Shown here: positions 28,350 to 58,230 of the stretch, piece after piece
Layout: each line of letters opens with the position of its first letter
Numbering within the stretch: position 1 is the first letter of the stretch
Assembly: GCA_036873755.1 (NCBI GenBank)
Contig: JAVTVY010039313.1
Location: forward strand, 1-64,000
Source of the DNA: Hanleya hanleyi
Lineage: Eukaryota > Mollusca > Polyplacophora > Lepidopleurida > Hanleyidae
Direction of reading: 5' to 3'
DNA length: 64,000 bases
Program-made: the position numbers and the translations under genes
The notes under the pieces: model-generated
What the model was told of the DNA's origin: nothing
What the model saw: the letters and a program-made list of their open reading frames with translations, nothing else
Databases searched by the model: none

Positions 28350-28586
28350 TGCCCCCGGACCTGGTAGTGTTAAAGGTGTTAAACAATACGCGGCCTGAAA
28401 AATAGAACAAAGGTATGCTAATTCTGACAGTTGATGTGTTAATTGGGCCTAATTCGACAAACTGGAAGAGTTAGTCACATAATGTGATTGGATAATTGAT
28501 TTTTTGCAAGTGCACAGCCACATTTTTCCTTTCTAGCATATCAACTGTCTATGACACAAGGCAAACAACACTGACAATGTACTTAC

Positions 28587-34251: not shown

Positions 34252-35404
34252 CATCTACAAAACTCAGGATTTAAGACAGTGTAGCACAACCTAGTATATT
34301 GTTGCTAGACTGGTTTGATTGTATGGCTATTTTTTGGCAGGATTTTTGGACATCAATCCGGAATAGTCTAGTAGTCAGGCCTTGAACATAGACATTTCTT
34401 GGTCACTGCCTGTCAACTTTGTGGATATACAAGGGATTCCAGAAACGTTGCCAGCTACAACTCACGTTTTGTTTTACCCAATTGATGGCGGATGGAGCCG
34501 TCACCCGCTAATAAAAAATGCAAAAAATAAAATCGTTGTACTTGATAAAGTTGTACATACTACGCTGTAATGTTCCAGAATACCCCACTATTTGGACAGA
34601 TATACGATTTATGTTTGGGTATGATGGTGATTCACGCTTTACCTTTTGTATCATAGTCAAATGTTGGAACAATTTTTTCTTCCTCTTACAAATATGCCTC
34701 CTTTTAGTTTCACTTTTTTCGATATGCTGAGATATTTCCTTATTATAAAATAACGTATGCCATGTATGGTAATATAATATAATATAAGTAACATAGTAAT
34801 GTAATTATGTACCAAATCGTAGCTTATCGTCCCAGGAACAAAGGCGCTGGAACATTAATTGTATTTTCATGCACACGTTAGGGTGAAAAACTTAAGAAAT
34901 GGCCCACCCCTCGTTATACGAGTATTACAGAAAATAAAACGTCCCATAGCTGGATCAAAATATTGAAAACATCTGTAATATTTTACACACATACGCTATT
35001 TATGTTGATATATAGTGTATGTTTACATAAGATGTTTTGAAGAGAAAGAAATAATATCTTCCAAACTGACCAAGTTTAACTATATCGTATCCAAGCTACT
35101 ATGCTCTTTTATTATTCTGTAAATTTACACCAACGAAGTTATACTCGTGTATATGGTAAATGGCCATTAATTTAATTATATACATAGGCTACGGTACAAT
35201 AGTGCTGAAATTATCCCGCCACAATACATGTATATAAGAATTTCAGAAGACTAATCAAATGCAACATTAAAAGGGTGGTGGAAAACGATGCCGGGGTACT
35301 GACAAGAAGACATAAAATCCCACAGAAAAATATACTGACAACCTTTTACATAGCCTGTTAGAATAATAAAGATTGCAGTACCGTAAACTCATAGTGGTAA
35401 AACG

Positions 35405-38400
35405 GGTCGTTTGTATGAGCTGCCATATATGACAATATTGTGCAGATGTTATATATATAATTTCTTACAATACATGGTCATGTTGAACATAAATTACTTA
35501 AAGTGCGATATTATATATGAATTGTTTTCTCATATATGTAAGAAATCACAAAATATTTATTGTTCTTCACGGTATATAGTTTTCTCTGTAATATGCTTCT
35601 GTTCGAATAAAATATATTTTATAAATATATGAAAATATAGAATATATATTCTTTGCAAATATATATAATTTTACAATATATGGCATTAAGGTACGTTTAA
35701 CGGAAGTTGCGCGCGCTTCCGATACTGTATGTTGTGGCGAGTTTTTTCTGGCAAATTGCAGTGGAAATCCTGGCGAACTAAGCTGTCAGTGTGGATCAGC
35801 TCGTTGGGCAAATTCTCGCCGACCATTGTTTACAGATATTGCTTCAACAAACAGCTACAATAGCGAGAAAACACCGATCCTGGTAAACCACATTTACGAT
35901 CATACTAGAGCGCACATAATCAACTGGCCAAAGTTTGTCAACATTTATAATATAATTATGAGTATCAATACCTAGCAGATTATTTTTTAAAATGTATCTA
36001 TTTGGAGAAAACTTTTTCCGGTAATTTTTTGAACTCGAAATTTTATCGTATTCCCCCGTCAGGATTCGACGGTTAGAATGAGCTATAGAAAGATAAGTGC
36101 ATGAGAATGAGAGGGTTTGAAAGAAGGAAATGTTAGGTGATACTTTTGCAGGTATGGGAGAAGAAGAGGGCCCCTATAGGTTTGTGTTGAGTGTGAAGAG
36201 GGTATATTGTGTTATAAGAATTTGAGATTACACAGTGTCTATGTGACACCGATAAGAGGGGTCATGTGTAGGATGGCTTGGGGGAGACGGGTTGAATGGC
36301 GTGTTCGCAAGACCAGTGCCCAAGGAGTGCCCAAGTTGTGATGTCGTGACGAGATAAGGGGAAGACGCCAAACGCATATGGTAGGCCGTGGTGGACAAAT
36401 ATCTCTATTGTGTATGCGTATATATTCGAATATATATGCGTATTAAATCCAATATATGTCCATATATATTCACAGCCAATCACAGAGCAGTTTTATATAT
36501 GCGTATTAAATGTTTTTATATGCAGATCAAATCATTTTATATCCATATTAATTCAGATTTCATCCCTATATATAAAGAAATTAGCTACGCACTAACTTTG
36601 AATTTATCTCCATATTAATTCACATTTATGTCGGACAATAATCATTTATGTCGTACACAAATCAACCAATAGAATCACAGGAATTATGTGCGACATAAAT
36701 CGCTTTCCGGTAGACCCTCCATGCCCCCAGTTCCCAAAATATTGGAGATCGATAGTAAGTTTCTCTCCCTACTCTTGCAACAGTATATATTCTTGCCCCT
36801 TATCTCGGAGCAGTGTTTTAGTCCAAATCATGACTTGTCAAAAGTAAACTTCCCGCCCTTCCTCTCCCAGTGTTTGAATATATTTCCCGCAGCTACTGTC
36901 GCAAAGTTTTGAGTACGAAGGAAAACATTGGTCCTGGTCGACAATGACGGTCGACAATAAATTTCTTGCCCTCACTCTCGCAGTGTTTTAGTCGGAAGGA
37001 AAACCTTGGTCCTGGTTGACAATGACGGTCGACGATAAATTTCTCGCCACTTCTCTCGCAGTGTTTGAATAAATTTTCTGCCACTACTCTCGCAGTGTTT
37101 GAGTCCGAATAATAACATTGGTCCTGGATGACAATGACGGTCGACAATAAATTTCCCACTCTTACTCTCGCAGTTTTTGTGTTCGAGGAAAAAACCTTGG
37201 TCCTGGTCGACAGTGACAGTGGACAATACATTTCTTGCCCTATTCTCGCAGTGTTCGAGTCCGAGCAGAAAGCAGTGGTCATGGATGACAATGACGGTAG
37301 ACAATAAATTTCTTTTCCCAACTCACGCAGTGTTTGAGTGCGAGTAGAAAACCTTGGTCCTGGTCGACAATGACAGTCGACGATAAATTTCTTGCCCACA
37401 CTCTGTGTTTTAGTCCGAAGGAAAACTTGTTCTTGCTCCTACTCGTGCAGTACATAAGTCCGAAATAAAACATTGTTCCTGATTGACAATGACGTTGACA
37501 AGAAATTTCCCGCCCTTACTCTCGCAGTGTTTGAGTCCGAGAAGAAAACCTTGGTCCTGGTCGACAATGACGGTCGACAATAAATTTCCCGCCCTTAATC
37601 ACTCTCGCAGTGTTTAAGTCAGAGTAGAAAACCTTGGTTCTGATTGACAATGACGGTCGACAATAAATTTCTTGCCCTCATTCTCGCCGTGTTAATAAAT
37701 TTCCCGCCACTTCTCTCGCAGTGTTCGAATAAATTTTCCGCCATTGCAGTGTTTGAGTCCGAGGAGAAAATCTTGGTCCTGGTCGACAATGACGGTCGAC
37801 AATAAATTTCTTGCCCCTTCTCTCGCAGTGAATGAGTCTGAGCAGAAAACATCGGTCGTAGATGACAATGACGGTCGACAATAAATTTTCCGCCCTTACT
37901 CTCGCAGTGTTGAAGTCCGAGCAGAAAACCTTGGTTCTGATTGACAATGACGGTCGACAATAAATTTCTTGCCCTCATTCTCACAGTTTTAATAAATTTC
38001 CCGCCACTTCTCTCGCAGTGTTCGAATAAATTTTCCGCCATTGCAGTGTTTGAGTCCGAGGAGAAAACCTTGGTCCTGGTCGACAATGACGGTCGACAAT
38101 AAATTTCTTGCCCCTTATCTCGCAGTGAATGAGTCTGAGCAGAAAACATTGGTCGTAGATGACAATGACGGTCGACAATAAATTTCCCGCTCTTACTCTC
38201 GCAGTGTTGAAGTCCGAGCAGAAAACCTTGGTCCTTCCCGCCACTTATCTTGCTGTGTTTGAATAAATTTCCCGCCACTATAGTCTCGCAGTGTTGAGTC
38301 CAAAGAAAAACCTTGGTCCTGGTCGACAATGACGGTCGACAATAAATTTCTTGCCCTAATTCTCGCAGTGTTAATCAATTTCCCGCCACTTCTCTCGCAG

Positions 38401-40030
38401 TGTTCGAATAAATTTTCCATCATTGCTCTTGCATTGTTCGAGTCCGAAGAAAAACCTTGTTCCTGATTGACAATGACGGTCGACAATAAATTTCCCGCCA
38501 CTTCTCTCGCAGTGTTTGAATAAATTTTCCGCCCTTATTCTCGCAGTGTTTAAGTCCGAGAAGAAAACCTTGATCGACAATGACGGTCGACAATACATTT
38601 CTTGACCCTACTCTCACGGAGTTTTAATAAATTTCCCGACACTATTCTCGCAGTGTCGAGTCCGAAGAAAAACCTTGGTCCTGGTCGACAATGACGGTCG
38701 ACAATAAATTTCTTGCCCTCATTCTCGCAGTGTTAATAAATTTCCCGCCACTTCTCTCGCAGTGTTGGAATAAATTTTCCATCATTGCTCTCGCATTGTT
38801 TGAGTCCGAAGAAAAACCTTGATCCTGGTTGACAATGACGGTCGACAATAAATTTCTTGACTCTACTCTCACGGAGTTTGAATAAATTTCCCGCCACTAT
38901 TCTCGCAGTGTTCGAGTCCGAAGGAAAACATTGATCCTGGTCGACAATGACGGTCGACAATAAATTTCTTGCCCCTTCACTCGCACTGTTCGAGTCCGAG
39001 CAGAAAACCTTGGTCGTGGATGACAATGACGGTCGACAATAAATTTCTTGCTCTACTCTCGCAGTGTTCGAGTCCGAGCAGAAAACATTGGCCCTGGTTG
39101 ACAATGACGGTCGACAATAAATTTTCTGCCACTTATGTAGCAGTGTTTGAATAAATTTCCCGCCACTACTCTCGCAGTGTTTGAGTGCGAGCAGAAAACC
39201 TTGGTTCTGATTGACAATGACGGTCGACAACAAATTTCCCTCCCTTATTCTCGCAGTGTTGAAGTCCGTGCAGAAAACATTCGTCCTGGTTGACAATGAC
39301 GGTCGACAATAAATTTCCCGCCACTTCTCTTGCTGTGTTTGAATAAACTTCCCGCCACTACTCTCGCAGTGTTGAGTCCGAAGGAAAACCTTGGTCCTGG
39401 TCGACAATGACGGTCGACAATAAATTTCTTGCCCTCATTCTCGCAGTGTTAATAAATCTCCCACCACTTCTCTCGCAGTGTTCGAATAAATTTTCCGTCA
39501 TTGCTCTCGCATTGTTTGAGTCCGAAGAAAAACCTTGTTCCTGGTTGACAATGACGGTCGACAATAAATTTCCCGCCACTTCTCTCGCAGTGTTTGAATA
39601 AATTCTCCGCCCTTACTCTCGCAGTGTTTGAGTCCGTGAAGAAAACCTTGATCCTGGTCGGGCAATGACGGTCGACAATAAATTTCTTGACCCTATACTC
39701 TCACAGTGTTTGAATAAATTTCCCGCCACTATTCTCGCAGTGTTTCAGTCCAAAGCCGAAAACATTGATCCTGGTCGACAATGATGGTCGACAATATATT
39801 TCTTGTCCCTACTCTCACAGTGTTCGATTCCGAGCAGAAAACCTTGGTCTTGGTCGACAGTGATGGTCGACAATAAATTTCCCGCCCTTACTCTCACAGT
39901 GTTTGATTCCAAGCAGAAAACCTTGGTCCTGGATGACAACGATAGTCGACAATAAATTTCCTGCCACTTTTCTCGCAGTTTTTAAAAAAATGTCGGCCAC
40001 TCCTCTCGCAGTGTTTGAATAAATTTCAAC
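35405..40030 (+). repeat. Left arm of large inverted repeat
   Basis: Contains, in order, tatgagctgccatatatgac, the gcgcttccg region, the tatatgcgtatatt-rich block with aatcacaggaattatgtgcg (36,388-36,690), cctccatgcccccagttccc (36,717) and the modular tandem array. Each has a reverse-complement partner in the right arm in mirrored order. Confidence 0.75.
36890..40030 (+). repeat. Modular GTCGAC tandem array, left arm
   Basis: A 78-bp module (gtcgacaatgacggtcgaca, aataaatttc, ctctcgcagtgttt, gagtccgag, gaaaaccttggtcctgg) alternates irregularly with 31-bp modules (gtttgaataaatttcccgcc plus actctcgca). About thirty copies of the gtcgac core occur. The many open frames on the minus strand are shadows of the repeat and not genes. 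Confidence 0.9.
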
Positions 40031-41063
40031 AACCGTTCTTGGTGGAAATGAATACTGTTGTAGTGCTTGTAGAATTCTAATTAATGCAGTGAACCTGTGA
40101 TCAGCCAATCGATATTTGAATAGAATTTTATTACCTGATGATCTAATTTAGTGCACCACTTTAGCATGCTTGCTGCCTTGTTGAGGAGTTTGAATTTACT
40201 GACCAATTGTACCAGGGGTTCTTTGATGTACAAAGAAAACTCCTGGGGTAAAGAGGATGCGAGAAAATGTGTATCCAAATATTCATTTCAGCTCTAATAT
40301 CAAATAGTTTTGAAATTAGTTTTTACAGCTCAGCCTATGCTGCTGGGGTCTTGTCATCGGCATGTTCTTCCGCCATATTTTTCGTCAAATTATTTATAAT
40401 AGTCCTCCAATGCATCCAACATCCCACACTGAATTTATCATATTTTAACCACTGCTAAAGCATCTTCCGCATTCAACAAATGTTTCAGGCTTTTACATAT
40501 GCATTTTCCATTCATTGTGTACATGTATCAATATACATGGACTAGAACTGTTCGGCTGAGGGGTTGTTGCACCTTTTAGGTGCTGCCTCATGTTTTATCT
40601 GCATTTCTAAGTTTAACTATTGTTCAGCACTTGTTTAACCAAGAAATACTATATAGAGGGACTGTCATTCTAATGATATAGATATTACTTGATACATGTA
40701 CCTGTAATTCTGGCTCCCTAAAAATTCATACATATTGTACTTTTGGATAATAACTCTATTTCAATGACAGTTTCAAAAAAAGTTGTAAAGCTATATTGTA
40801 TTTGCATTCCTAAGTTTTTTTAATGCTCAACATTTGTTTAACCAAGAAATATTATGGAGTTAGTGAGTGAACGCAATTACATGTAGCTGATACACAGAGA
40901 GCTAAAATTCATTATTCTTAATTCTCATTGCATCCATTAATATCAGACTAGGTTGATCAAATTGGTAAAACTAGGCAGTGGATATTGTTCCATGAAACCA
41001 GCTGAATGGCATGATCAGATTATTTGTCCTTGATCAGAATTAATTGAGAGTAGTGTGGTGTAG

Positions 41064-41975
41064 CGCATCTTCATTTTATCCAGCCAATTTCTACGTTCCC
41101 ACTTCGAACTTTCCTTGATATATCAGGACTCCTTCAATGTTCAAATAACTTATAAATAGACACGAAACGTCACTGACCTCGAAAACATTTGAAATTCGAA
41201 ATGGGTCGCACAGGAGCGTTATTGATTGGCTGACCTAATTAGTGGGCACCATATTAGGAGGAAGGACGCCGCTAATAGAGGATGATGTCACTCTATGTGA
41301 CTTCACTCACAATGGATGTGTACGTTCTGATTGGTTCTTCTGTCGTTAACTGGTGAAATTTACACCTCGGATTTTGAACGCTGAAGGGCAATCTCACGTT
41401 CGGCTATTTCCGTATTGGCGGAACAAGCCTCTCACATAGAACGCACAAATCCCCACTGGTGGGGAGCGTATGACGATCACGCAGTGAGCCGGCTAAGAAA
41501 TAGTGCCTTTGATAATCGAGAGATCCGGATGCATTTTATTGTGAAATTCATTTAATTTTAACCAAACGAACATAACTCATTCAAATTATACAAAACTATT
41601 TCTCTGTTTAGTTGAATAATAGCAATCTATCACCAGAACTCAACAACTGGGCTAATTTCCGCCAATACGGAAATAGACGAATGCGAGATTGGTTCCGCCG
41701 AAAATTAATTGTGTGCATGATAAGATAAGATTCTTTATTGCACTGAGCATCCCATTTGGGACAGAGTACAAAACATATAAAAAGTAGAATAAATAAGAAA
41801 GTAAACAAACAAGTGCGACATTTCCGTTTCTGCTCCCAGAAATCCACTAGGCCAGAGGTCAGTTTTCGCAGCTAAAGTGAGTTCTGGGGCTAGATTGCGC
41901 TGAAGGGTCAGATAAATCAAGGCAGGTTCGAAGTGGGAACGTAGAAATTGGCTGGATAAAGTGAAGATGGGTGTA
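41064..41975. mobile_element. 0.9-kb foldback element
   Basis: Left arm includes cagccaatttctacgttccc and acttcgaac; right arm includes gttcgaagtgggaacgtaga and aattggctg. Inner arms also pair: ctatttccgtattggcgg with ccgccaatacggaaatag. No coding sequence is recognised. Confidence 0.7.
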
Positions 41976-42394
41976 GCGGAGAGGAGGATTTTTTTTGTAA
42001 TATTTTTTCTTACATATGTCCTTCACCCTTTCAGCCATTCGTAATCAGTGCTTTACAGATTTAGCCTGACTTAATTCACAAGGCTCATTCCCATATTGGA
42101 TAAGTCAGTATGTGTAGCACTGTACATGGGACACATTCTACTGTCCTGTCATCTAATTGTAGCAGCAACAGTTTATAGTGATTGTCAGCAAGCTGTGGCA
42201 GAAACCACTGGTTCAGATTTCAACATGAGGTTGAGACTCACAAAACCCCTAGGCTTCCCCCAAGCAATTGAGTAATATGCCGAGAATGTGCAACATATTA
42301 TGGCTATACTAATCATCCAGAATTGTCCTTTTCAGAAAATATCATCAATTCTGCAGATATATAAACAGCAACTTAATCATATCTAGATCAATAC

Positions 42395-42930
42395 ACAAAA
42401 AGGGTCATAATTTTTTGTAGGCTTTCAGAATACAAGTAGATAAATAAGTTCACAAAAATTTGGTAGCTGTATTGAGCACAGTTCTTCAGATACATGTATA
42501 ACTGGTTACAACTACACATCACAAAATCGGAGATATTTACATCCGAAAGGGGCATAAATCCATAAAATATGGGCCAAGACTTTTTGTAAGCATCTAGACA
42601 ACTGGATAAAAAAGTTTCCTCATAATCTGGTAGCCGTACCAAACACTGTTAATTATATATAACTGGTTACATTCAAGCTTATATATCACAAAATCAGAGA
42701 TAACTGCACCCGAAAAGAGGCATAACTCTGTAAAATAAGAGCCAAGGCAAGTAACTTTTTGTTGGCTTCTAGAATACAACAGTATAAATAAGTTTTCAAA
42801 ATATAGTAGCTATATCGAACACAGTTCTACAGATATAGCTGGTTACATTCAAGGATATAGGACAGAGAAATTAATATATCTGTTAATATCTCTCTAAAAT
42901 ATGGGCAGAGGGGAGCCACTTTCAATAGGC
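42395..42930 (+). repeat. Tandem array, unit about 170 bp
   Basis: Three diverged units share cataa-tc-gtaaaata-gggcca, actttttgt-ggctt and agatata-aactggttacatt blocks. Confidence 0.7.
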
Positions 42931-44187
42931 AGTGTTCAAAATTTGGTGGTTGTCTCAAGCGGTTTTGCCTAGAATGCGGTAATGGATGGACGGACGTACA
43001 TGGCGACGACAATACCCCAAGGTCAAAATGGCTGAGGGGTAAAAATCCGTCTAGTTATTTTATCTCCATAAAATGTTCACCTCTTCATGGCATCATTTTA
43101 CATGCACATGTGCTATGTAATTGATCTACAGTATACATGTTTCAAAAATTGTTAATTCCTTTGAATTCTTTGTTTGTTTTCTTTGGGGGGAATATAGATG
43201 CTGTACATGCCCAAGTACATCCATCCACCGGTTACTCTGAGGATCAAATCCTGAGAAGGAATATGTATTCTCCAGGCTCTGAAACAATGATCTGTGTGGT
43301 AGTGTTTTTAGTTTAGACATACATGCATGCCTACGCTCACTGATTTGGCGGCACAATTTGGTTGACGGGCTTGATCATTTCAAATTGACTGTGCTGTGTT
43401 CGTGTCATGCACATACACACCACTTCACCATGGACATCCCTCTCCGGTCGATTACAATTTGCTTTGGAGGTCTGGATTGGTTTAGCCAGAAGTGTCGAAG
43501 GCTGAAGATGGTATCTTCCGATATTTCCTCCCAGGATTTGATATTCAAAGTATCCATCAGTACTAATATGCAATATAAAACAAGCATTCTGAGAAACCCA
43601 ATATCTCGCCTTGCAGGGTCTCCGGCTGAAGCTGCAGCATTATATTGAAAACATATGTAGAGCGAATTTTCCATGATACATGCAATTTTTTGCGTAACAG
43701 AAACCTTATCAATGGAAATGTACAAAGTCTAAACTGCGATAATTTGGACAAAAATTCATATTTCATGTCATATTTCTTAAATAGCGCATACACATTCTCG
43801 AATCACATCAAACTTGTGTCAAACTCATCCAATGAAAGCTGACCGGTTCAGCAAACTTTCCAAGTACAGGTGTACATGTATGTACATTATCAGTGACAAA
43901 TTACTAAGACGAAACCCTCAAAATTTGAACCAAAATTTAATGTTTCATATCATACATGTATATAGCACAGGTACATTCTCTAATCATAATGAAATAATAT
44001 AACCTCTTACAACATTTTAGCATATAAACAAATATGGGGTTCCATGATCTTCACCTTTCAAGCTAAAACTGCGTGTACATGTACACTAATGTCTCATCAT
44101 TTATCTTGACCTGATGAAAGAGTAAATTGCTCAAACCGGGAAACGCACGTGGTGTCACATGGCAGTGTGACTAACGTCACAGGACCT

Positions 44188-45151
44188 ACGAAGTAGGGTA
44201 GGCAGCAGGACTCCGGAACTGAACTCTAGGAAATCCCCCACCCCCAAGTTGAAATCCTGCCCATATTAAGATGAGCACTGCCCAAGTCGGATTCACCGGT
44301 GATTTTAATCAAAAATCACCCGAACTTTTCATCAAAAGTAGGTTAGCTCAGAACTTGCTGGTAACAGCCCCCTAATGCACCTTCATGCCAAGCATCATGG
44401 TTCTAATGTCAACAGTTCTCCTTATTTTGCCGACGAAAGGATTCGGATGGACTCGCTCATTCACTCATTACCGGACAATTTGCAAATGAGAGCCTACTTC
44501 GTATGAATTAGAAATATTTGCATTTATCTTTATTTATTTCATTTAAAACATGGCCGTGTGACTAAGTAGGGTTTGATATGATTTAAGTGTGTACTCCAGA
44601 GATGACTTGGGGCCCTATGTGCTACCGTGAGAGAATTTGTATAGCAGTCTCTAATTGACAGTGGGTACTATTAACTTTCCCAGACGTCACCGCTGGTGAG
44701 TCATTAGTGTAGCAACTATTATCGCCCTCAGTTCCTATTACCCTGGACACTTATCAGCCCAGCAGTACAGCACGAGGTCACCCATCCAAGTTTTGACCGG
44801 GCTCAAAGTCCCTTAACTTCGGTGATTTTACGAGAACCGTTGTGTCCAACGTGATATGCCGTATCAGGGAACATTCAAAAACCACAGTGAAGCATACAGC
44901 CAAGGGTTCCCGATTGGCATGACAGAGCACTCGCTGAGCCATCATTAAATAATAATAAAATAATTATAAATCAAATTTTCATCAGAATTCAGTCAGCTCA
45001 GAACTTGCTGGTAACAATGCCCTAATGCATGTTCATGCCAAAAATCAAGGTTCTGATGCCAACGGTTCTCCTTATTTTGCCGATGAAATGATTCGGGTGG
45101 ACTCACTCACTGACTACCGAACAATTTGCAGATGGTAGCCTACTTCGTAGG
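44188..45151. mobile_element. Composite insertion containing a 5S-like sequence
   Basis: Starts cctacgaagtagggtaggc and ends gcctacttcgtagg, an inverted repeat. Flanking sequence (44,050-44,170 and 45,155-45,660) continues without it at 56,390-56,760, which lacks the insertion. Two direct repeats of about 178 bases (44,333-44,510 and 44,977-45,155, with ctcagaacttgctggtaaca) lie inside, with the 5S-like part between them. Confidence 0.55.
44768..44863 (-). pseudogene. 5S rRNA-derived sequence (SINE3-like or pseudogene)
   Basis: On the minus strand: tacggcatatcacgttggac at the 5' end, then an A-box-like region, then acttggatgggtgacctcgt, the universal 5S internal-control and loop sequence. 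The order and spacing match 5S rRNA over about 95 bases with many substitutions, and the last 20 or so bases are shortened. Too diverged to be a working 5S gene; it may be the head of a 5S-derived SINE continuing to about 44,520. Confidence 0.7.
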
Positions 45152-46713
45152 AATATAGCCAATCAAGATAGGCGCTTGCCAACACTATGCAGCGATGATT
45201 TTCTTTTATGTCTGCCTGTGATTTGGTGAAACATGCACATTGGAACAGTGAGTCTCGAAGTACATGTATACACACCTTAAGCTTGAATTAAGCATTGGAA
45301 AGTGTATACAAAGTTTGAAATATATTTATTAAGGCAGTGTGCCATCACTGGACCTAGACAATGATTGCAACAGATCACCATGCTTTATTTGCAGTTTACT
45401 CTGTGTAATAAAATCGTAAAAAAATTACAATAAATACTTTCTGACACTTCGCCATGGTCTTTCATTTGATGGATTTACAATCACTTTAATTTCTTTCAAA
45501 TAGCCAACCATATTTAAATTTTAAAGCCGTCATACATTGCACTTCCCCTGATATGGACCACTGAATATATAGAGCTATATCACCAAATCTGTATTCTGAT
45601 CAGACAATATGTAGCCAAGGCAACATGTGTAGTGTTTGACTTGGATATGCGAAGACGAACATGTTCATGTAACAATTGTGTATATTTCAAAAAATTTTGT
45701 TCTACTTTTTGTTTGAAAATGTCCTTATTTGGAAAATCCCAGTGGGAGGCCTGAATATTGCATGAAATACAGACCCAGTGCGGTATTCCAGCCAGAGGGA
45801 CTGTATTTGCGTGCCTCTGGAGGAACAAGAGTGCATTTTGGTATCTGATAGTGGAGAGAACCATCTGAAATTTGAAATATTCTCAAATTTTCGATGAGTA
45901 TAGTCCCTTGTCCCCACATCAACCTGTTCAGATCTCCTAACTATTGACCTTTCACATCGTTGGTGGAAATAGGGTGGGTATAATTGAAAAATATTATCGA
46001 CGTCGAGAATTATTTCTGAGGGGAAAACTGCATGATTGACATTTTTTAGCTCTCATGACCTGGTTTGAATAAAATTTTGATTGTGAAATATTTTACTGCT
46101 TTCAAGCTTCTCAGAAGTGCCAAAGTGCATTAATCACGTCTAAAATTCCAAAATTTTCCAGGTACCCCCATCTGAGGGAGGGAGCGAGCGAGCCACCCCT
46201 ACAGGTCTGTCCAACCCCAGTCTACCCCCCCCCCCCCATAATATTGACGTCCCCCATAATGATGTCCCTCTGCTACTCCTACAGCTATACTCTCGAACAT
46301 GATAAAGCTCAGTGGTTATGCTGTTATATGAATAGACCATTTTGACAGATGTCCAGTTGCATGCAGTGGTGTAACTTAACTTTCTTAGGTGGTTGCCCAT
46401 CAGGGCAAGTAAAACTGACAGTCTGGTTGCCCTGAATGAGATTAACTTGCCCTGAAGTTTCAGGTGTCGGTCGAAATGCTCATAAATATAAAATAATAAA
46501 TCTCTGGACAATTTTATTAGATTGTTCCTTCTTAATTTGATACATTATCAGCTACATGTATTTTATTCCTTGTGGGTAGCCTGGATTACAAGATGAAAAA
46601 TGAAAATAGATATTAGAGAAAATAATAAATGTCGGCCAGAAAAAATCGGCAATATTATACAGTCGCATTGGCAGTTTTATGAAGTAAATTCTATCTTGTG
46701 TTTATAGTTTAGA

Positions 46714-47599
46714 CGGTCATGCTAAACACTGCCCGGGACCGACCGGAACCGCCCGGGACATAATCTTACCGCCCGGGGCCACCAATGTCATACAGACTGT
46801 TAAGATTCAGCGCTATCCCCGGTTTGAAGGTCGTATTGTCATTATACGACTAACGTGTTACGTTTGTTATGAATTCCACGGAAAACTACGCTTACCCGCA
46901 AAAGAGACCGCGTTACGGCTGAATTCTTAGCCGAATATTATCATGCCTTTTTTCCTCTGTTCCTAACATATATCTTCGGAAATATAACTATATAAAACAG
47001 AAGACGCGAATTATTTTTCTAATAAATTATAAACATGATGAACATGCTGTAATATACCTCAATTCTAAGCAATAGAAATCTCGACTACATATTTTCACTA
47101 ACGGGTGCTGTGAAGATTAAAACCAGATCATGATTCCCGTAACCGTGGAATTCATGTTGTCATTTTCTGATTTAATTTATTGATAAATATCGAATATTAT
47201 AAAACCAAATATATAAATTTGGTGAAAAAGCTAAGCGCTGAACTTAGCGAAATTTAAAGTCTATATATCAACAGAAAAAGTGTCCAGTTTCAGCTTTCCA
47301 TCTTACTTTCAAATTACATAACGCTGGAATACGGGAGCAATGTAGAGCTTTCCATCTTTTTACTCAAAATTTTGTGAGTTGGAATGCGGGAATACAGGAG
47401 CGATCTCGAGCTTTCCATCTTCCGACTATGAATTTTAAAAAAATGGGAAGCCACATTCTTAAGTGTTACACGTGGAATGATCCACAGAAGAAAATAATAC
47501 AGAATGTCAAGTTGAACCTTCGAACCCGTGTGGTGCCGGTCGATTTCCGGACGGCCCCGGGCGGTTCGGGGCGATCCCGGGCTGTATTTAGCAGGACCC
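46714..47599. mobile_element. 886-bp hAT-like non-autonomous element with 8-bp target duplication
   Basis: Flanked on both sides by agtttaga (46,706-46,713 and 47,600-47,607). Terminal inverted repeats: left cggtcatgctaaacactgcc then cgggacc; right ggtc-type partner ending tgtatttagcaggaccc, with GC-rich cccggg blocks in both. An 8-bp duplication is typical of hAT (and P) transposons. No transposase inside. Confidence 0.8.
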
Positions 47600-48060
47600 A
47601 GTTTAGATGCCGATATTCGCCATTGCCGTTCAGTATGAAAATCGGTCAAAATATCCCAATTCAATATCCTAACTTGGATTTAATATCCTAATTGGGATAT
47701 TTTTCCCAGTTAGTCCTTTGCTCTGACCTGGTCTATTGTCCAGACTATATTTTCTGTTTTCTATAGGAACTGCAGCCATAAATAAATGCATGGGTCTTCA
47801 ATTCTGCTGCTTCACCTTGCTGTATCCTGGGAGATATGCATAAGATTTATTCCAGAAATTATCCGAAACAACTGCTATGAGGTACATGTTAGTACATATA
47901 GTGATGTTATAATAACTCCTATACTCAGGAAGCTGTAGGGTCAGAACATCCCGAGAAAGTGGGTGTGTATATGAACATCTCTTCATACACAATTACAAAC
48001 AATGTTCATTTGTTGTTGTTGTTGTTGTTGGCCATCACGTTTGACTTCAATTTCCTGTGC

Positions 48061-48403
48061 TCATGGAAATTCTGCTTTCCAGCTTTCCAAAAATACTCTG
48101 CAGCGTTTGCTGCTGTCATATTGTTCATTCTTCTCTGCGGATGTAGACAGTTTCATGGCCACAGAAGAAGGAGACGATTGTTTCGTCTTCGCCGTGTAAC
48201 TTTTCAAAGAACAATTTTTCTGACAGCGGCCAACGAAAAATAGAGCGGACAAATTCTCCACTATCTGGAGTTGCAGTGAGAGAGCTTGATAACGTTTCAG
48301 CAAGCGGAAAAATACACCAGCTGTGGAGAATGTTGGCTGAAGCGGACAGTATGGAACTATTAGAATCATTTGCGTGCACTTCTTTTTTTGTTGTCATTGC
48401 CAT
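48061..48403 (-). pseudogene. Possible zinc-finger/hAT-related fragment
   Basis: The minus strand reads MKLSTSAEKNEQYDSSKRC then RVFLESWKAEFP before a stop. A K-x-F-x-x-W-x-x-EFPW opening is common in a group of transposon-derived BED/TTF-type zinc-finger proteins. Only this short start is seen and two frames overlap, so it is a weak call. Confidence 0.2.
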
Positions 48404-48942
48404 CCATCAGTCTTCCCGCGTATCAATGACCCAGATGGTTACAGATTGTATTAGAATTTGTGTCCGGCTTAAGAACAAGCATGGCATGTTCATTGGGAAT
48501 AAATATTATGATCATGAACGTAATTCTATGCGACTACAACTCAATTAATGGTAAGCCGTTGTCCAATTTTTGCATAAATCTTCCTTGCCCAAGCCACAGT
48601 TGCCTGGTCTGTGCCGTGGGATGTTGGATCATGGTCTTTGTTTACAAATATTTTTTTTCAATAAATTATGAAAATTAACAAATATCTATTTATAGATTTT
48701 TTTAAATATATTTTTTTCTTTTTTTCTTAGTGTATTTCTTTTCCATCTTTGGCTCAATTAAAGTTATCGCCATATTATGTCAAGCCGAGTTACTACAGTT
48801 TTTAATTATCAACCCTAGCCTTCCTCTATGACATAGAACAAAAGAGAGTTGGGAATAGAGCCACTCAACACGGTCGTTTTCAAACCATTCTAAAAAAAAG
48901 CCTATCTTTCCAAACGCCATCCGTTTATTACTTCCCAAGTGC

Positions 48943-49497
48943 ATGGACCAAGCTTCGGAAGATCGTCGCTTTAAATATCTAAATCTTACATTGAGGAGAG
49001 CAATTCATTCTCCCCGGCCAAAACACTTATTTCAGAATTTTATATGCCGGGCTATACAATATGACCAGCGACGATTGGTCGAAATTAACCTCAAAAGTCA
49101 TCTCCCGCCCACTGGATTATCTGCCCTTGACATACGACCAATGCTTTCTGCCTTCTCCGCAAACCCGTTGTTTTACAACTCCAGTCACCCAGGACTGGAG
49201 AGTCGACCAATGAAATTCCAGACTGGTTATAGGGCTAAAAATAGCGAGCAAAACAATAGCCAAGTTGACATGGCTTCGTTCGTTCCTACACTCGGCGATG
49301 AGTCCTCTTCATGGACTTACATGTACACTCCGGGATCACATGGCTCCATGGCTCTATCCGGCAATAAAACAACCCATCCCAACTCTCTGTCTATTAGATT
49401 TATCGAGTTCGGCAAAGAGTTTGTTTGCCATGAAGAGCTCATCCGTCTGCAATCAGTCTTCAAACATCAACAGCCGGTTGTATTTCTCCTCCATTAA
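48943..49497 (+). CDS. Uncharacterised 184-codon open frame
   Basis: Longest simple open frame outside arrays. Contains MASFVPTLGDESSSWTYMYT from residue 107. I recognise no domain, signal peptide or membrane segment. Its 3' end overlaps an inverted repeat (49,457-49,597) and another frame (49,265-49,582) is open as well, so it may be chance. Confidence 0.15.
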   Translation: MDQASEDRRFKYLNLTLRRAIHSPRPKHLFQNFICRAIQYDQRRLVEINLKSHLPPTGLSALDIRPMLSAFSANPLFYNSSHPGLESRPMKFQTGYRAKNSEQNNSQVDMASFVPTLGDESSSWTYMYTPGSHGSMALSGNKTTHPNSLSIRFIEFGKEFVCHEELIRLQSVFKHQQPVVFLLH

Positions 49498-49597
49498 ATT
49501 TGTATGTGTCACGTGGTCGGCAACGTATCAGGGATCACGTGACCCGTACGAAGATAATGGCGGAACTACAACCGGGCATTGATGTTTGAAGACTGAG
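49457..49597. repeat. Inverted repeat at the inner edge of the right arm
   Basis: Left cagtcttcaaacatcaacag then ccggttgta; right tacaaccgg then gcattgatgtttgaagactg. Arms of about 29 bases with one or two mismatches enclose a loop containing cacgtg and tcacgtgac. Confidence 0.75.
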
Positions 49598-49599
49598 TA

Positions 49600-51460
49600 G
49601 TGGCAGGAAATTTATTCAAACACTGATAGAAGTGGCGGGAAATTTATTGTCGACCGTCATTGTCGACAAGGACTAATGTTTCCCTTCGGACTCCAACACT
49701 GCGAGAGTTGTGGTGGTAAATTTATTCAAACACTGCGAGAGAGTGGGGGAGGGAAAGGTATTGTCAACCATCATTGTCAACCAGAACCAAGGTTTCTCTT
49801 CGGACTAGAACACAGAGAGTAATTGTGAGTAATTTACTGTCGACAGTCATTGTCATCCTTAGGACCAAGGTTTTCCTTCCGACTAAAACACTGCAAGAGT
49901 AAGGGCACGAAATTTATTGTTGACCAGGACCAATGTTATCCTTCGGACTCCAACACTGTGAACGTGAGAGTAACGGCGGTAAATTTATTCAAACACTGCG
50001 AGAGAGGTGGCGGGAAATTTATTGTCGACCGTCATTGTCGACCAGGACTAATGTTTTCCTTTGGACTCCAACACTGCGAGAGTATTGGCAGTAAATTTAT
50101 TCAAACACTGCGAGAGTAGGGGCGGGAAATTTATTGTCGACCGTCATTGTCGACCAGAACCAAGGTTTTTCTTCGGACTAGAGCACTGAGAGTGGTGGCG
50201 GGTAATTTATTTTTGACCTACTTTGTTGGCCAGGACCAGTGTTTCCTTGGGTCTCAAACACTGCGAGAGTAGTGGCGGGAAATTGTTTTAAACCCTGAAT
50301 GAGGAGTGGCGGAAAATTCATTGTCGACCGTCATTGGCATCCAGGACCAAGGTTTTCCTTCCAAATAAACACTGCAAGAGTAAGGGCAAGAAATTTATTG
50401 TCGACCGTCATTGTCGACCAGGACCAATGTTTTTTTTTCGGACTCAAACACTGTGAGAGTAATGGTGGGAAAGTTATTAAAACACTGTGAGAGAGGTGGC
50501 GGAAAGTTTATTGTCGACCGTCATTGTCGACCGGGACTAATGTTTTCCTTCGGACATCAACACTGAAAGAGTAGTGGCGGTAAATTTATTCAAACACTGC
50601 AAGAGTTACGAGGGGCTGGAAATTTATTGTCGACCATCATTGTCGAACAGAACCAAGGTTTTTCTTCAGATTAGAGCACTGGGAGTAGAGGCGGGTAATT
50701 TATTTGTGACCTACATTGTTGGCCAGGACCACTGTTTTCCTTCGGTCTCAAACACTGCGAGAATAGTGGTGGGAAATGTTTTTAAACACTGCGAGATTAG
50801 GGGCAAGAAATTTATTGTCGACCGTCATTGTCGACCAGGCCAATGTTTTTCTTCGGACTCAAACTCTGTGAGAGTAGTGGTGAAAAATTTATTCAAACAT
50901 CGCGAGAGAAGTGGCGGGAAATTTAGTGCCGACCGTCATTGTCAACCAGGACCAATGTTTTATTTCGGACTTATGTACTGCGCGAGTAGGGGCAAGAACC
51001 AAAGTTTTCCTTCGGACTAGAAAACACAGAGAGTGAGGGCAAGAAATTTATCGTCGACCGTCATTGTCGACCAGGACCAAGGTTTTCTACTCGCACTCAA
51101 ACACTGCGAGAGAAAGGGAGGGAAATTTATTGTCGACCGTCATTGTCAACCAGAACCAAGGTTTTCTGCTCTGACTTAAACACTGCGCGAGTAAAGGCGG
51201 GAAATTTATTCAAACACTGCGAGAGAAGTGGCGGGAAATTTATTGTTGACCGTCATTGTCAACCAGAACCAAGGTTTTCTGCTCTGACTTAAACACTGCG
51301 AGAGCAGTGGCGGGAAATTTATTCAAACACTGCAAGAGAAGTGGCGGGAAATTTATTGTCGACCGTCATTGTCAACCAGGACCAATGTTTTCTGCTCGGA
51401 CTCAAACACTGCGAGAGTAAGGATGGGAAATTTATTGTCGACCGTCATTGTCATCCCATT
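49600..51460 (-). repeat. Modular GTCGAC tandem array, right arm part 1
   Basis: Reverse complement of the array at 36.9-40.0 kb: ttattgtcgaccgtcattgt, cgaccaggaccaa, cactgcgagag and gtggcgggaaatttattcaa modules in irregular order. Confidence 0.9.
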
Positions 51461-52380
51461 AAGGTGCAGGAATGGTTATTATTGTCTCGCATGCTATTTA
51501 GCAGATCTGCTACTTCGCAAATAATTTCTAAAATCAGTGATATTTAGAAAAGGGTGTGCTACTTTGAAGATAATTTCTAGGATTATTGCTAGTTAACACT
51601 TTGACTTGCCTGTTCCCAAATGAAATATATTGTATAATTAGCACAATTGCTAAATATTTAATATTCTTTCTAAATTGCAGCCAGAAGAAATATTCAATAT
51701 TCATGATAACTCGCAAACGCAAATTGTCGGACTGCCTCTCCCGAAAGAAAATATATTGTATAATTAGCACAAATACTAAATATTGAATATTTCTTCTAAA
51801 TTGCATCCATGATAAATATTGAATATTTCTTCTAAATCGCAGCTCAAATTGTCCGATTGCCTCCCCTTAAAGAAAATATATTGTATAATTAGCACAAATG
51901 CTACATATTTTCAATATTGCAAGGATTGGTGATTAAAGAGGTTTAAGGCAGTCCTACCCCTTATTTGCTGGTCTGTGCAACTCCTCTGACAAAAACAGGG
52001 ATTATTCTATCGCTCTTCCTGGTTAAACAACGCGCATGCGCTGTTATGTAAGTTTTAAGACAGTCGCAAGTACATTTTCATTTGTGGTCTGTGCAACTCC
52101 ACTCAGACAATAAGATTATTCTATCGTTCTTCCTGGTTAAACAACGCGCATGTGCTGGTATATAGACTGTTTAACCCTATCTGGCCTGGGCTTTTGGGGA
52201 CCTGTCGTGGCCTACGGCGGGGGGGGGGGCGGAATGGACCCCCTAATTATTTTTCTGACCCCTTGAGCTAGGGGGCTGAAACTTACCACACTATATCCTT
52301 GGGTCAAGCTCTACCACAAAATGTAAAAAAATCCAAGATGGCCGACTTGATGACGTCACAGTGACGTCATTTTATAGTAG
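51461..52380. other. AT-rich stretch with dispersed-repeat copy 5
   Basis: 51,580-51,910 has four units with attgtataattagcacaa and ctaaatattgaatat. Two copies of a cttcctggttaaacaacgcg block lie at 52,015 and 52,130. 52,165-52,380 is a reversed copy of the dispersed CRE-like repeat, including gatgacgtcacagtgacgtc. Confidence 0.7.
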
Positions 52381-52384
52381 ATTA

Positions 52385-54345
52385 TAAAAGTGCTAAATAT
52401 TGAATATATTGTCTTTCCCAGACGCCAGCTACATATTTAAGTGCGAATCTTTTCTAATTATATGATATTATAAAGGTGCTAAATATTGAATATATTGTCT
52501 TTTCCCAGACGCCAGATAGATACTTAACTGCGAATCTCTTCTAACTATATGATATTATCAAAGTGCTCAATATTAAATATATTGTCTTTCCCAGACGCCA
52601 GCTACATATTTAACTGCGAATCTTTTCTAATTATATGATATTATCAAAGTGCTAAATATTGAATATATTGTCTTTCTCAGACGCCAGCTACACATTTAAC
52701 TGCGAATCTTTTCTAATTATATGATATTATAAAGGTGCTAAATATTGAATATATTGTCTTTTCCCAGATGCCAGATAGATACTTAACTACGAATCTCTTC
52801 TAATTAGATGATATTATCAAAGTGCTAAATATTCAATATATTGTCTGCTCTCAAACGTCACCTGCATATTTAAATGCGAATATATTCTAATTAGATGATA
52901 TTATAAAGGTGCTAAATATTGAATATATTGTCCTTTCTCCGACACGGTGTTACAGATATTTTGATGCGAATCTCTTCTAATTATATTAGATTATAAAAGT
53001 GCTAAATATTGGATATATTGTCTTTTCTCCGAAAAGGGTCTTGTGGATATTTAACTGCGAATCTCTCCTAATTATATGATATTATCAAAGTGCTAAATAT
53101 TGAATATATTGTCTTTTCCAGACGCCATCTACATATTTAACTGCGAATCTTTTCTAATTATATGATATTATAAAGGTGCTAAATATTGAATATATTGTCT
53201 TTTCCCAGACGCCAGATAGATACTTAACTGCGAATCTTTTCTAATTATATGATATTATCAAAGTGCTAAATATTCAATATATTGTCTGCTCTCAACCGTC
53301 ACCTATATATTAAAATGCGAATATATTCTAATTAGATGATAATATAGAGGTGCTAAATATTGAATATATTGTCCCTTCTCCGACACGGTGTTACAGATAT
53401 TTTGATGCGAATCTCTTCTAATTATAGTAGATTATAAAAGTGCTAAATATCGAATTTATTGTCTTTTCTCCGAAAAGGGTCTTGTGGATATTTAACTGCG
53501 AATCTCTTCTATTTAGTATAGATTATAAAAGTGCTAAATATTGAATATATTGTCTTTTCCCAGATGCCAGCTACATATTTGGGTGCGAATCTTTTCTAAT
53601 TATATGATATTATAAAGGTGCTAAATATTGAATATATTGTCTTTTCCCAGACGCCAGATAGATACTTAACTGCGAATCTCTTCTAATTAGATGATATTAT
53701 CAAAGTGCTAAATATTCAATATATTGTCTGTTCTCAGACGTCAGCTACATATTTATGTGCGAATCTATTCTAATTAGATAATATTATAAAGGTGCTAAAT
53801 ATGGAATATATTGTCCTTTCTCCGACACGGTGTTACAGATATTTTAATGCGAATCTCTTCTAATTATAGTAGATTATAAAAGTGCTAAATATTGAATATA
53901 TTGTCTTTTCTCTGAAAAGACTCTTGTGGATATTTAACTGCGAATCTCTTCTATTTAGTATAGATTATAAAAAGTGCTAAATATTGAATATATTGTCTTT
54001 CCCAGACGCCAGCTACATATTTAAGTGCGAATCTTTTCTAATTATATGATATTATAAAGGTGCTAAATATTGAATATATTGTCTTTTCTCAGACGCCAGA
54101 TAGATACTTAACTGCGATTCTCTTCTAATTAGATGATATTAGCAAAGTGCTAAATATTCAATATATTGTCTGTTCTCAGACGTCAGCTACATATTTATGT
54201 GCGAATCTATTCTAATTAGATAATATTATAAAGGTACTAAATATTGAATATATTGTCCTTTCTCCGACACGGTGTTACAGATATTTTAATGCGAATATAT
54301 TCTAATTAGACTAGATTATAAAAGTGCTAAATATTAAATATAGAT
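52385..54345 (+). repeat. 88-bp tandem array with 442-bp higher-order period
   Basis: About 23 units built on gtgctaaatattgaatatat, tgtcttttcccagacgcca and ctgcgaatctcttctaatta. A distinctive unit with gacacggtgttacagatatt recurs at 52,942, 53,382, 53,824 and 54,266, so five units form one higher-order block of 440-442 bases. Confidence 0.9.
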
Positions 54346-54504
54346 GATATTAAAGTAACCCACTTTTCTGCCTACTGCGGAGTTTAGCAAAAATATCTGC
54401 ACAATATTGCCAAGTATGCTATATAGCACCATGTTGAAGCATAGGAAATTTGAAAAGTATCTAAAAAAAAGCCAATCCTGCACCTAACTCTGTCATCCAC
54501 GCCC

Positions 54505-54905
54505 AATGTTTTCTGCTCGGACTCAAACACTGCGAGAGAAGGGGCAAGAAATTAATTGTCGACCGTCATTGTCGACCAGGGCCATTAGGTTTTTTCCTCT
54601 GACTCCAACAGTGCGAGAGCAAAGGCGGAAAATTTATTCCAACACTGCGAGAAGTGGCGGGAAATTTATTAACACTGCGAGAATGAGGGCAAGAAATTTA
54701 TTGTCGACCAGGACCAATGTTTTTCTTCGGACTCAAACACTGCGAGAGTAGTGGCGAAAAATTTATTCAAACACTGCGAGAGAAGTGGCGGGAAATTTAT
54801 TGTCGACCGTCATTGTCAACCAGGACCAAGGTTTTCCTTCAGACTCAAACACTGCGAGAGCAGAGGCAAGAAAGTTATTGTCACCCAGGTCCATGTTTTT
54901 ATTCG
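54505..54905 (-). repeat. Modular GTCGAC tandem array, right arm part 2
   Basis: Resumes the array interrupted at 51,460, same orientation (attgtcgaccgtcattgtcg, cactgcgagagaagtggcgg). Confidence 0.9.
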
Positions 54906-57539
54906 GACGAAAATAAGAGCAAATTATATTTCAGATTTGTTATAGTATTTCATTGGGTGAGACCTAGCTTCCAGTTTTGGGAACTGGGGGCATGGAGGAT
55001 CCCCCCGCTTTCCTTCCCACAAGTTGAATCCGACTTCTGACCTAACATGTGGGACCTTTCTTTGTTGACATTCGGGACAAGATTTTATATTTCCGATAGC
55101 TTGGTAGCCGCTTGCCGTTTTCATAGCTGGAAAGGGTCACGATAATTTACCCTGTGCAAAGATTGTAGCCATATTGAGATTGTATACACTCTTATAGCCA
55201 CCCCTTTCACATCGCATTGCCAATGCACGGTTTAACTGTGCTTATATTCTGGGTCGTATTTTTTCTATGTTCCTCCGAGGAAACCTCGTAAGCCATAGCA
55301 ACTTTACATACAAAATTGTTGAATTAATAGAAAATACTCATTCGTAGAATATAACGATGTCTTTACCCATCTTCATACACAGGTCGATTCACATACATCG
55401 AAGTGCGGACCTTGCTCTTTTCACGTCCAAAGCAGCGTTTTAATTACGATGTATCAGCAATTCAGAATACAAACAACTAATCGTATACCCTGGAACATTC
55501 GTTTACGCCCTCACTAACAGTTTTCCCATTCTATATATGATGTCTGTTAACGATTTAAACAAAGTTCCTAACTTTTAAGCTTGCACTTGTTAAGCTAAGC
55601 TCAATACGAATATTATATATTTTGTTCTTAACTCTCAAACTGTATATATCTTTTTGATAACATGTAATTGTATTCGGGTACGTTGGTTATTTATTGAATA
55701 AATATATTAATGAATAAATAAAACCATTGTAGTAATAATACTCTCGAACTCTGTTTCATAAATCTCATCACGGTGAAACATCTAAGAACCGGCCACATCA
55801 ATGGCACGATGTGTATCATAACCGTCGACAAATCGCCCACTGACTATGATGGCTTGTCTATCTGGACACGGAAGTGAAGTTATGGCAGGAAGAGAAGCTA
55901 TTTATGTCGCACATAATTCCTGTGATTCTATTGGTTGATTTATGTACGACATAAATGATTATTGTCCGACATAAATTTGAATTGGTATGGAGATTAAATC
56001 GAAATTAGTATGTAGAAAAATTCTTTATATATAGGGATGAAATCTGAATTAATATGTATATAAAATGATTTGATCTGCATACAAAAACATTTAATACGCA
56101 TATATAAAACTGCTCTGTGATTGGCTGTGATATATATGGACATATATTGGATTTAGTATGCATATATATTCGAGATATAATAGAGATATTTGTCCACCAC
56201 GGTCTACCATAAACGCAATGGTCTGATTTTAATTATGCCGTAGGCCTGTTTGTCCAGGATCGGTTCAGTATCTTTGATCTATACCCTTAATAAACTATGT
56301 GGTATCGCAACGATGACGTGTCCTGTTCTTTTGTAATCGGTAACAGGATATAATACAGATAGCGGCCCAGTTTCCCAGAGGTCGCTCCAAATTCATCTTC
56401 ACGTTTCAAGTTAAATAGTAAAAAAAAAAAGTTCCGTCATTTACCTTGACCTAATGAATAGAGTGAATTGTTAAAACCGTGATACTTACTGTTCCATCAC
56501 GTGATGTCATATAGCAATCAAGATAGAAGGCGGGGATTTTCTTTGATGTCCGTGTGATTTCCAAATATGGCAAGTGGTGATGGTATTGATGTTAATTTCT
56601 TTCGAATAGCCAGCTGCACTTCTCCTACTATAGATCACGCAATATTTATATAGCTATGACATCACCAAACCTGTATTCTGATCAGATAATGTGTTATGTT
56701 TAGCCATGGCAACACGTGTAGTGTTCGACTTGGATATGCGAAGATGCCGCGCATTGAGAGATAATAGATCGTCCCGGAACATTTAGCGCACTGGTCTGGC
56801 CATATATTTGGACTGACCGGGTCAAGTTTGTTTGATGCAGCCCCGCCTTATGTATTTTGATAAGGGGATACATTTTCGGTGTATTTGTGGTAACGTCTGA
56901 GGGGTATATTAGACTCTGTTTGCTCAGTAAATTCGAGTATTATTCAGCTTTCTTCTAGTTTTATTTTGCATCATGCGGTTTAAAAAGCTGCTAGGCCCAT
57001 TACAGCATTTAGCTTTAGCCCAGTGTTTGGCGTTCTCCCGAAGATCCATGCTAGTGCGGTAGAGCAGCTACAAGCGTGTTATGAAGACTATGAGCATAAC
57101 GAACAATCTCTGACAAGCTATATAAAGCAGGGATCCCTTCATCAGATGAATCTGGAATTTTTCATTTGAACCCGTGGAAGAGAGAAGAACTCGCCACAAC
57201 AACTCGGACATGCGCTCAGCGAACTTCCGTTAAGCGTATTTATCAACTTCCGTTAAACGTACATAAATCATATATATTGTAAAAGTATATATATTGTAAA
57301 AGTATCTATTTTTATTTTTTTTTTATTTTATTTGAAAAAAAATCATATTTGGAGAAAACTATTTACTGTAAAGAACAATAAATGTTTTGTGATTTCTTAC
57401 ATATATTAGAAAACAATTCATATATAATTTCACACTTTAAATAATATATGTTCAACATGACCATATATTGTAAATAAATATATTTGTAATATCTACACAA
57501 TATTGTCATGAACGGCAGCTCATAAGTTTGGGAAAATTT
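54906..57539 (-). repeat. Outer right arm of large inverted repeat
   Basis: Contains ggaactgggggcatggagg (54,976), cgcacataattcctgtgatt (55,910), aactgctctgtgattggctg (56,110), ttccgttaaacgtacataa (57,245) and acaatattgtcatgaacggc (57,500), each the reverse complement of left-arm sequence. 55,050-55,890 has no partner. 56,390-56,760 instead matches 44,050-45,660 in direct orientation. Confidence 0.75.
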
Positions 57540-58230
57540 TCAATTCAATTGAAAATACTTCGTCAGGCAGACGGTTTATACATGGATATACATTCTATAT
57601 CCAAATATCCTTTATCAGATCAGATTAAAATTGACATGTTCGGAGATGAAATTAAAAAAATCACAGAGGCACGGTTTTGGGAGTGAAATGCATGAAGAAA
57701 TAATTATGTGGGATGTGAAAGTTTCGCCACTCACATGCACCGATCGGTTATCAACAGGTTTGTTCTTCTGATTACTAAAAATGAATTATTTGAACGAAAA
57801 TCGACCGTTGTTTTGTCTGCTTCATTTTGCAAAATTTCATTCTGAAAGTCATTTTATGACTGCAAAAAAAATCGAAAAAGGTGTCCAGCGACTTACATGT
57901 AAAATACAGTCCAAATTTGACCTTATTTTCAATATCATTGGTTAATTATTAACAGAAAGACAGACAGTTAATTACTTGATTAATTGATTACCCTCCGTTA
58001 GATAAACTTGCTTGGCTTACCTGAAGTGCTTACCGAATAACAGTGTCTGCCGACATCTTCTATGACAACCCATTTTCAAAAGATAATTTTCCATATAAAG
58101 AAATAGTTTATCATGATTTGTCTTTCACCAACCCATAGAGTGAATAATTTATATGGATATTTTGTAAAAGAAAATCTTTTTCGAAGGTTTGAAGACTTTT
58201 GGGGATAATCTAACCTTTATAGATCATTGT
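57540..58230 (+). repeat. Second half of the split 1.15-kb duplicate
   Basis: Direct copy of 30,735-31,435 (gaggcacggttttgggagtg, ctaaaaatgaattatttgaa). Together with 34,316-34,790 it makes up the interrupted copy. Confidence 0.85.

Follow-up and report, generated by a model that had tools for sequence, protein, structure and literature searches.

A mirrored 22-kb unit with opposed tandem-repeat arrays in a split dispersed repeat of Hanleya hanleyi: a probable foldback-like insertion

Two copies of one dispersed repeat lie close together in a contig of Hanleya hanleyi (assembly GCA_036873755.1, contig JAVTVY010039313.1, positions 1 to 64,000, the whole stretch that was analysed and hereafter the window), one of them intact and the other split. 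The question raised by this locus is what came to lie between the two halves, and whether it arrived there as a single element. Overall, the window has the character of animal DNA that is rich in repeats and for the most part non-coding. The longest stop-to-stop reading frame not running off its ends has 251 aa and is situated in the left of the two module arrays described below; positions 28,552-28,905 resemble an F5/8 type C domain (27.1 bits against a Pfam cut-off of 27.8), and the protein encoded at 10,831-11,397 has 131 relatives, at least two of which, among the 120 listed, carry the reverse-transcriptase domain PF00078. Searches of the whole window with Rfam at gathering thresholds and with ARAGORN returned nothing. 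Elsewhere in the window we observed a 331-bp imperfect palindrome (15,535-15,865, 75% self-complementary) and a minisatellite whose 43-bp unit is repeated about 28 times over two neighbouring stretches (60,628-61,838).

The repeat, here termed AB, is dispersed and 1.18 kb long, and was delimited by blastn self-comparison as follows.

30,255-31,435, forward strand: AB copy 1, intact, the empty-site reference
34,313-34,786, forward strand: A2, the left half of split AB copy 2, 85% identical to 30,255-30,733
57,539-58,224, forward strand: B2, the right half of split AB copy 2, 81% identical over 726 columns to 30,740-31,435

The identity of B2 to AB copy 1 is 84.5% across the first 607 columns, and 22.75 kb separate A2 from B2. 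Six bases of AB copy 1 (30,734-30,739) are absent from both halves; they sit in a run in which ATATAAG occurs twice in AB copy 1, and the gap may therefore reflect repeat slippage and not loss. In a repeat of about 1,180 bp, the breaks of A2 and B2 fall no more than 6 bp apart, which speaks for the interruption of a single AB copy and against two truncated copies of separate origin. The blastn alignments thus bear out the initial annotation, which had described an intact copy of about 1.15 kb and a split second one. The reverse history, in which a block was lost from AB copy 1, is less economical. Within AB, a micro-inversion of about 45 bp was noted (30,599-30,643 against 34,655-34,699, 89% as an inverted match), and a 166/322-bp satellite-like array occupies 31,943-34,045, shortly before the split copy.

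Self-comparison of the DNA between A2 and B2 revealed a mirrored unit of 22.1 kb (35,414-57,524, its own later insertions included), which starts with TATGAGCTGCC at 35,414 and ends with GGCAGCTCATA at 57,524. From outside to inside, three inverted-repeat blocks (IR1, IR2 and IR3) are followed by module arrays, in collinear inverted order.

34,787-35,413, unstranded: left unpartnered piece of 627 bp, with no right counterpart
35,414-35,749, forward strand: IR1 left, beginning with 11 perfect inverted bases
36,377-36,705, forward strand: IR2 left, 90% identical to 56,211-55,895
36,713-36,739, forward strand: IR3 left, 27 bp, 96% across 27 bases
36,845-40,026, forward strand: left array of 34- and 78-bp modules (TRF, module dissection)
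40,027-49,594, unstranded: spacer of about 9.57 kb, with no recognisable coding capacity
49,595-51,455, reverse strand: right array, inner piece, the same modules inverted (TRF, module dissection)
51,457-54,490, unstranded: nested 3.03-kb element interrupting the right array, bounded by terminal inverted repeats (TIRs) that are short and imperfect (from 51,462 and 54,485)
54,491-54,910, reverse strand: right array, outer piece, severed by the nested 3-kb element (TRF, module dissection)
54,975-55,001, reverse strand: IR3 right, 27 bp (self-comparison)
55,895-56,211, reverse strand: IR2 right (self-comparison)
57,181-57,524, reverse strand: IR1 right (self-comparison and junction reading)

The core of IR1 (35,414-35,709 against 57,524-57,244) is 82% identical, with a weaker extension to 35,749 and 57,181. 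Long inverted terminal repeats, a trait of foldback elements, are therefore present, though patchy: mirrored sequence outside the arrays amounts to only about 0.7 kb. The stretches 55,002-55,894 and 56,212-57,180 of the right arm have no partner in the left arm, and 35,750-36,376 of the left arm has none in the right. Parts of the right arm (56,437-56,485 and 56,615-56,744) match the spacer (44,097-44,144 and 45,538-45,655) as a dispersed repeat. The left arm measures 4.61 kb and the right 4.90 kb once the nested element is subtracted, or about 3.0 kb by coordinate arithmetic when its two unmatched stretches are removed as well. Of the mirrored arms claimed at the outset, the inverted blocks and opposed arrays were upheld. 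Their symmetry does not extend to the AB flanks, as 627 bp are unpartnered on the left and only 14 bp separate the right IR1 from its flank. Nor is the whole right side an arm, because 51,457-54,490, which includes the 87-bp array, inserted there as an element of its own.

TRF and module dissection located arrays of the modular tandem repeats in both arms. When cut at AATAAATTTC, the arrays yielded 86 modules: 34 of 30-40 bp, 49 of 68-86 bp and three odd ones. The commonest 12-mer, TCTCGCAGTGTT, has 46 copies, 28 on the forward strand in the left array and 18 on the reverse strand in the two right pieces; it is never reversed and is found nowhere else in the window. Tandem-repeat modules thus lie inside the inverted repeats in opposed orientation, a second foldback trait. 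The mirror of the arrays is strict in orientation, not in position. A mirrored register, as expected from an inverted duplication en bloc, would give positive Spearman values when windows of the right array are placed by their best match in the left array, and none was found: the coefficients were -0.15 (p 0.32), -0.35 (p 0.02) and -0.32 (p 0.04) for 150-, 200- and 300-bp windows, and -0.26, -0.47 and -0.36 for the array part alone, the p values being overstated because the windows overlap. The exception is the outermost windows of the right array, whose best match (92%) is indeed the outermost position on the left. The idea that modules are matched in position between the arms accordingly had to be abandoned. 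Such a missing register would result if each array had lengthened and shortened on its own, which is documented for Galileo (PMC3573991), or if the two had grown independently. A bacterial match to a 21-base array pattern was rejected, as it was a single stretch of 22-30 bp (E below 0.03) with no array, on a contig of a metagenome-assembled genome; pattern scans of viral contigs and a first scan of genome contigs gave no match.

Reading of the junctions yielded no firm target duplication (TSD), and the candidates are 5 and 6 bp long; a duplication of 7-10 bp, as in Galileo, Tetris and Tm1, was found at neither junction pair. The two candidates are as follows.

35,409-35,413, forward strand: GTTTG left, candidate 5-bp target duplication, directly before IR1
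57,526-57,530, forward strand: GTTTG right, candidate 5-bp target duplication, 1 bp after IR1
34,784-34,789, with its partner at 57,522-57,527, forward strand: ATAAGT, the rival and weaker candidate, at the outer junctions (junction reading)

When pairs of points were drawn at random, 0.5% of 200,000 trials had a shared 5-mer no more than one base from each point, and the true figure for GTTTG is higher, as several junction models and lengths were examined. Its presence at the IR1 edges is suggestive of a target duplication. ATAAGT is also present at the break point in AB copy 1, and its right copy falls 12 bp short of the right flank. At AT-rich points, shared 6-mers arose in 5.9% of 20,000 trials within 7 bp and in 15% within 10 bp, and wider search windows at the outer junctions gave any shared 6-mer or longer in 29%. 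GTTTG fits the IR1 edges better, and ATAAGT is the weaker of the two. Six base pairs is also the size of the target duplication made by Polintons.

The two candidates imply different models of the ends, ATAAGT counting the 627 bp on the left as part of the insertion. With GTTTG, the unit lies 14 bp from one end of about 640 bp lacking in AB copy 1, and these 640 bp would predate it. In that case 34,787-35,413 together with 57,525-57,538 may have belonged to AB copy 2 before the mirrored unit inserted; alternatively, 34,787-35,413 may be a terminus present on the left only, or a later insertion. That the 627-bp piece is a miniature inverted-repeat transposable element (MITE) was not supported, as no terminal inverted repeat rose above noise and a direct repeat of CATAGT within it (34,792 and 35,390) is of chance level. 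Fifty-six bases of this piece (35,263-35,318) recur at 63,030-63,082 with 82% identity, which explained nothing.

The unit has itself been a target of insertion. The nested 3.03-kb element splits the right array in two, is flanked by the target duplication TGTCATCC at 51,449 and 54,491, and carries 126-bp and 87-bp arrays of its own (TRF). A dispersed repeat of about 120-200 bp has copies at 52,169-52,369, 9,287-9,471, 17,417-17,606, 27,177-27,351 and 24,836-24,953, one of which abuts the 87-bp array of this element. The spacer was confirmed at close to the 9.6 kb first assigned to it, and further features were recognised in it and at the edge of the right array.

41,066-41,969, unstranded: MITE-like insertion in the spacer, TIR of about 70 bp, 9-bp target duplication GGTGTAGCG
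46,714-47,599, unstranded: MITE-like insertion in the spacer, TIR of 43 bp, 8-bp target duplication AGTTTAGA
44,749-44,867, reverse strand: relic in the spacer resembling 5S rRNA (Rfam RF00001, score 37 bits, gathering threshold 38, E 0.00016)
49,453-49,596, unstranded: imperfect palindrome of 144 bp at the right-array edge (junction reading)

Random pairs of windows share a 9-mer or longer in 0.5% and an 8-mer or longer in 1.7% of cases. The rule used for GTTTG gave an 8-bp duplication within 5 bp of the TIR match for the nested 3-kb element, and, for the two MITE-like insertions, one of 9 bp directly at the ends (distance 0) and one of 8 bp a single base away (distance 1); the same rule gave no target duplication for the edge palindrome. 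The 5S-like relic is either a 5S pseudogene or a 5S-headed SINE, and stands between 186-bp direct repeats (44,323-44,508 and 44,973-45,154). With the three nested elements removed (3.03, 0.90 and 0.89 kb), 34,787-57,538 comes to about 17.9 kb, or about 17.3 kb without the 627 bp on the left.

No mobility gene had been recognised at first inspection, and this held at the level scanned. The insertion outside its arrays contains 65 stop-free stretches of at least 58 aa, of which 50 were compared with Pfam. No Pfam family, whether polymerase, integrase, ATPase, protease, capsid or any other, reached its cut-off in these 50. Weaker matches were dismissed, the best being to IBR (E 0.017, 15.6 bits against a cut-off of 24.3). 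The longest reading frame in the spacer, of 212 aa, had no relative at E 0.001.

Taken together, these observations lead us to read 35,414-57,524 as probably an old, non-autonomous copy of a giant foldback-like DNA transposon, inserted into AB copy 2 or into its extra 640 bp or so. It is foldback-like by plan and is not assigned to any named family. In its favour are the split AB copy next to an intact one, the collinear IR1-IR2-IR3-array order, the opposed orientation of all 46 copies of the 12-mer, the distance of just 14 bp between the right IR1 and the AB flank, GTTTG at either IR1 end, the lack of a Pfam match at cut-off in 50 of 65 reading frames and the published foldback plans discussed below. 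Provided that the two arms started out alike, the mirrored blocks, now 10-18% divergent, and the nested insertions suggest that the copy is old. An insertion with inverted arms is the most economical reading, and giant foldbacks were the right comparison to draw; the arms have turned out less clean than claimed. The unit is known here from a single copy, and several features count against this reading, namely the unexplained 627 bp on the left, the lack of a 7-10-bp target duplication, the arrays being out of register and the small amount of mirrored sequence outside them.

A mechanism consistent with the foldback-like reading can be outlined. IR1 would mark the ends of the element, as suggested by its 11 perfect inverted bases and the GTTTG beside both copies, and a transposase supplied in trans would pair these ends and move the unit. 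By analogy with Galileo, the reiterated 34- and 78-bp modules might serve as repeated transposase-binding sites. The two arrays would then have grown and shrunk independently through unequal exchange, and other elements would have inserted into the unit later, as the three nested insertions indicate. A more ambitious proposal, which we hold to be doubtful, is that there exists a giant non-autonomous foldback family (about 17-22 kb) with kilobase-scale satellite-like arms, mobilised through arrayed binding sites and making 5-6-bp target duplications, the latter pointing to a transposase unlike those of Mutator- and P-type foldbacks.

The same DNA could be envisaged as a nest of repeats, in which one AB copy received several insertions and two copies of a half-element, made up of outer blocks and array, came by chance to face each other across unrelated DNA, or one arm is a local inverted duplication of the other. 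The locus holds three insertions with target duplications of their own, a dispersed repeat common to the spacer and the right arm, arrays out of register and an unmatched left end, all of which a nest would accommodate. However, the halves of a single AB copy, with breaks within 6 bp, enclose the spacer together with both arms, the mirrored blocks are collinear, and the GTTTG pentamer stands beside both IR1 ends; a nest is thus an unlikely source of this structure, while retaining some weight. It is much less probable that A2 and B2 derive from different AB copies misjoined through repeats during assembly. AB is indeed a repeat and the arrays are difficult to assemble, yet the two break points lie no further than 6 bp apart in a repeat of some 1,180 bp, and the mirrored blocks, at 82-90% identity, are unlike a chimeric read or a collapsed palindrome. 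About as improbable is the decayed remnant of a giant element from a different superfamily, for instance Polinton/Maverick, with arms enlarged by satellite growth, for although the total length falls within the 15-25 kb given for Polintons (PMC6431247) and the ATAAGT candidate has 6 bp, this candidate is weak and rivalled by GTTTG, and no polymerase, integrase, ATPase, protease or capsid reached the Pfam cut-off in the 50 of 65 reading frames scanned.

Should the genome contain further copies that share these ends, foldback elements would be shown to include arms that exceed those of the families compared below two- to threefold. The unit would then also be a clear example of satellite-like arrays being carried from site to site by a transposon. 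Such transposon-borne arrays would bear on the spread of satellite DNA in repeat-rich animal genomes.

At first inspection no named class of transposon had been known to have this plan. That no such class exists proved wrong, as Tetris has the plan, and Galileo and Tm1 have repetitive TIRs. In Tetris, from Drosophila virilis, the TIRs measure up to 1,735 bp and consist of three domains, namely an external flanking one, one of tandem repeats of about 220 bp and an inner one; its middle is variable in composition and without coding capacity, its target duplications are 8-10 bp, its array length differs among copies, and it is apparently non-autonomous (PMC4079207). By plan, not by sequence comparison, our unit resembles the Tetris described there in its outer flanking domain, tandem-repeat domain and non-coding middle. 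In contrast to Tetris, its arms are 4.6 and 4.9 kb, its modules 34 and 78 bp, its middle 9.57 kb and its best candidate target duplication 5 bp, and no counterpart of the inner TIR domain was seen. The one use of the word foldback in an oyster satellitome paper refers to Tetris (PMC8268682).

Galileo, of the P superfamily, is described as having a known transposase, flanking sequences of 7 bp and internally repetitive TIRs that range from 18 bp to about 1.26 kb. Tandem repeats in one of its TIRs expand independently of those in the other, and the transposase reading frame is missing from the copies whose TIRs are longest (PMC3573991). The binding sites for the THAP domain of its transposase are situated in the tandem repeats, according to a second report (PMC3688188). 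On these accounts, the unit is like Galileo in its long TIRs with internal repeats, and unlike it in its longer arms and in that no transposase was found. Tm1, a Mutator/foldback element of root-knot nematodes, has composite multi-domain TIRs with variable tandem motifs and a motif of 14 bp; 45 of 53 complete copies carry target duplications of 8-10 bp, mostly 9 bp, one described copy is 1,080 bp long, and the TIRs of one element are on average 93% alike (PMC3169594). Composite repetitive TIRs, and short non-inverted ends outside the inverted repeat, are shared with the Tm1 so described, whereas the unit is far larger, its arms are 82-90% alike, and its non-inverted end is 627 bp as against 7 bp.

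Foldbacks can also bound much larger DNA. In Ising's composite transposable element of Drosophila, they flank cytologically visible segments of hundreds of kilobases that move as a unit (PMC6431247). The locus described here is similar in that a large piece of DNA lies between foldback-type ends, and differs in being one copy with a spacer without a recognised gene, and in that its movement is putative. No foldback element of this size appeared in the titles and abstract openings of the open-access literature searched, the coverage of which is limited, and the arms are two to three times as long as any TIR reported in the papers cited here. If the unit is a foldback at all, what is new in it is thus the size of the arms and of the element, the plan itself being already known.
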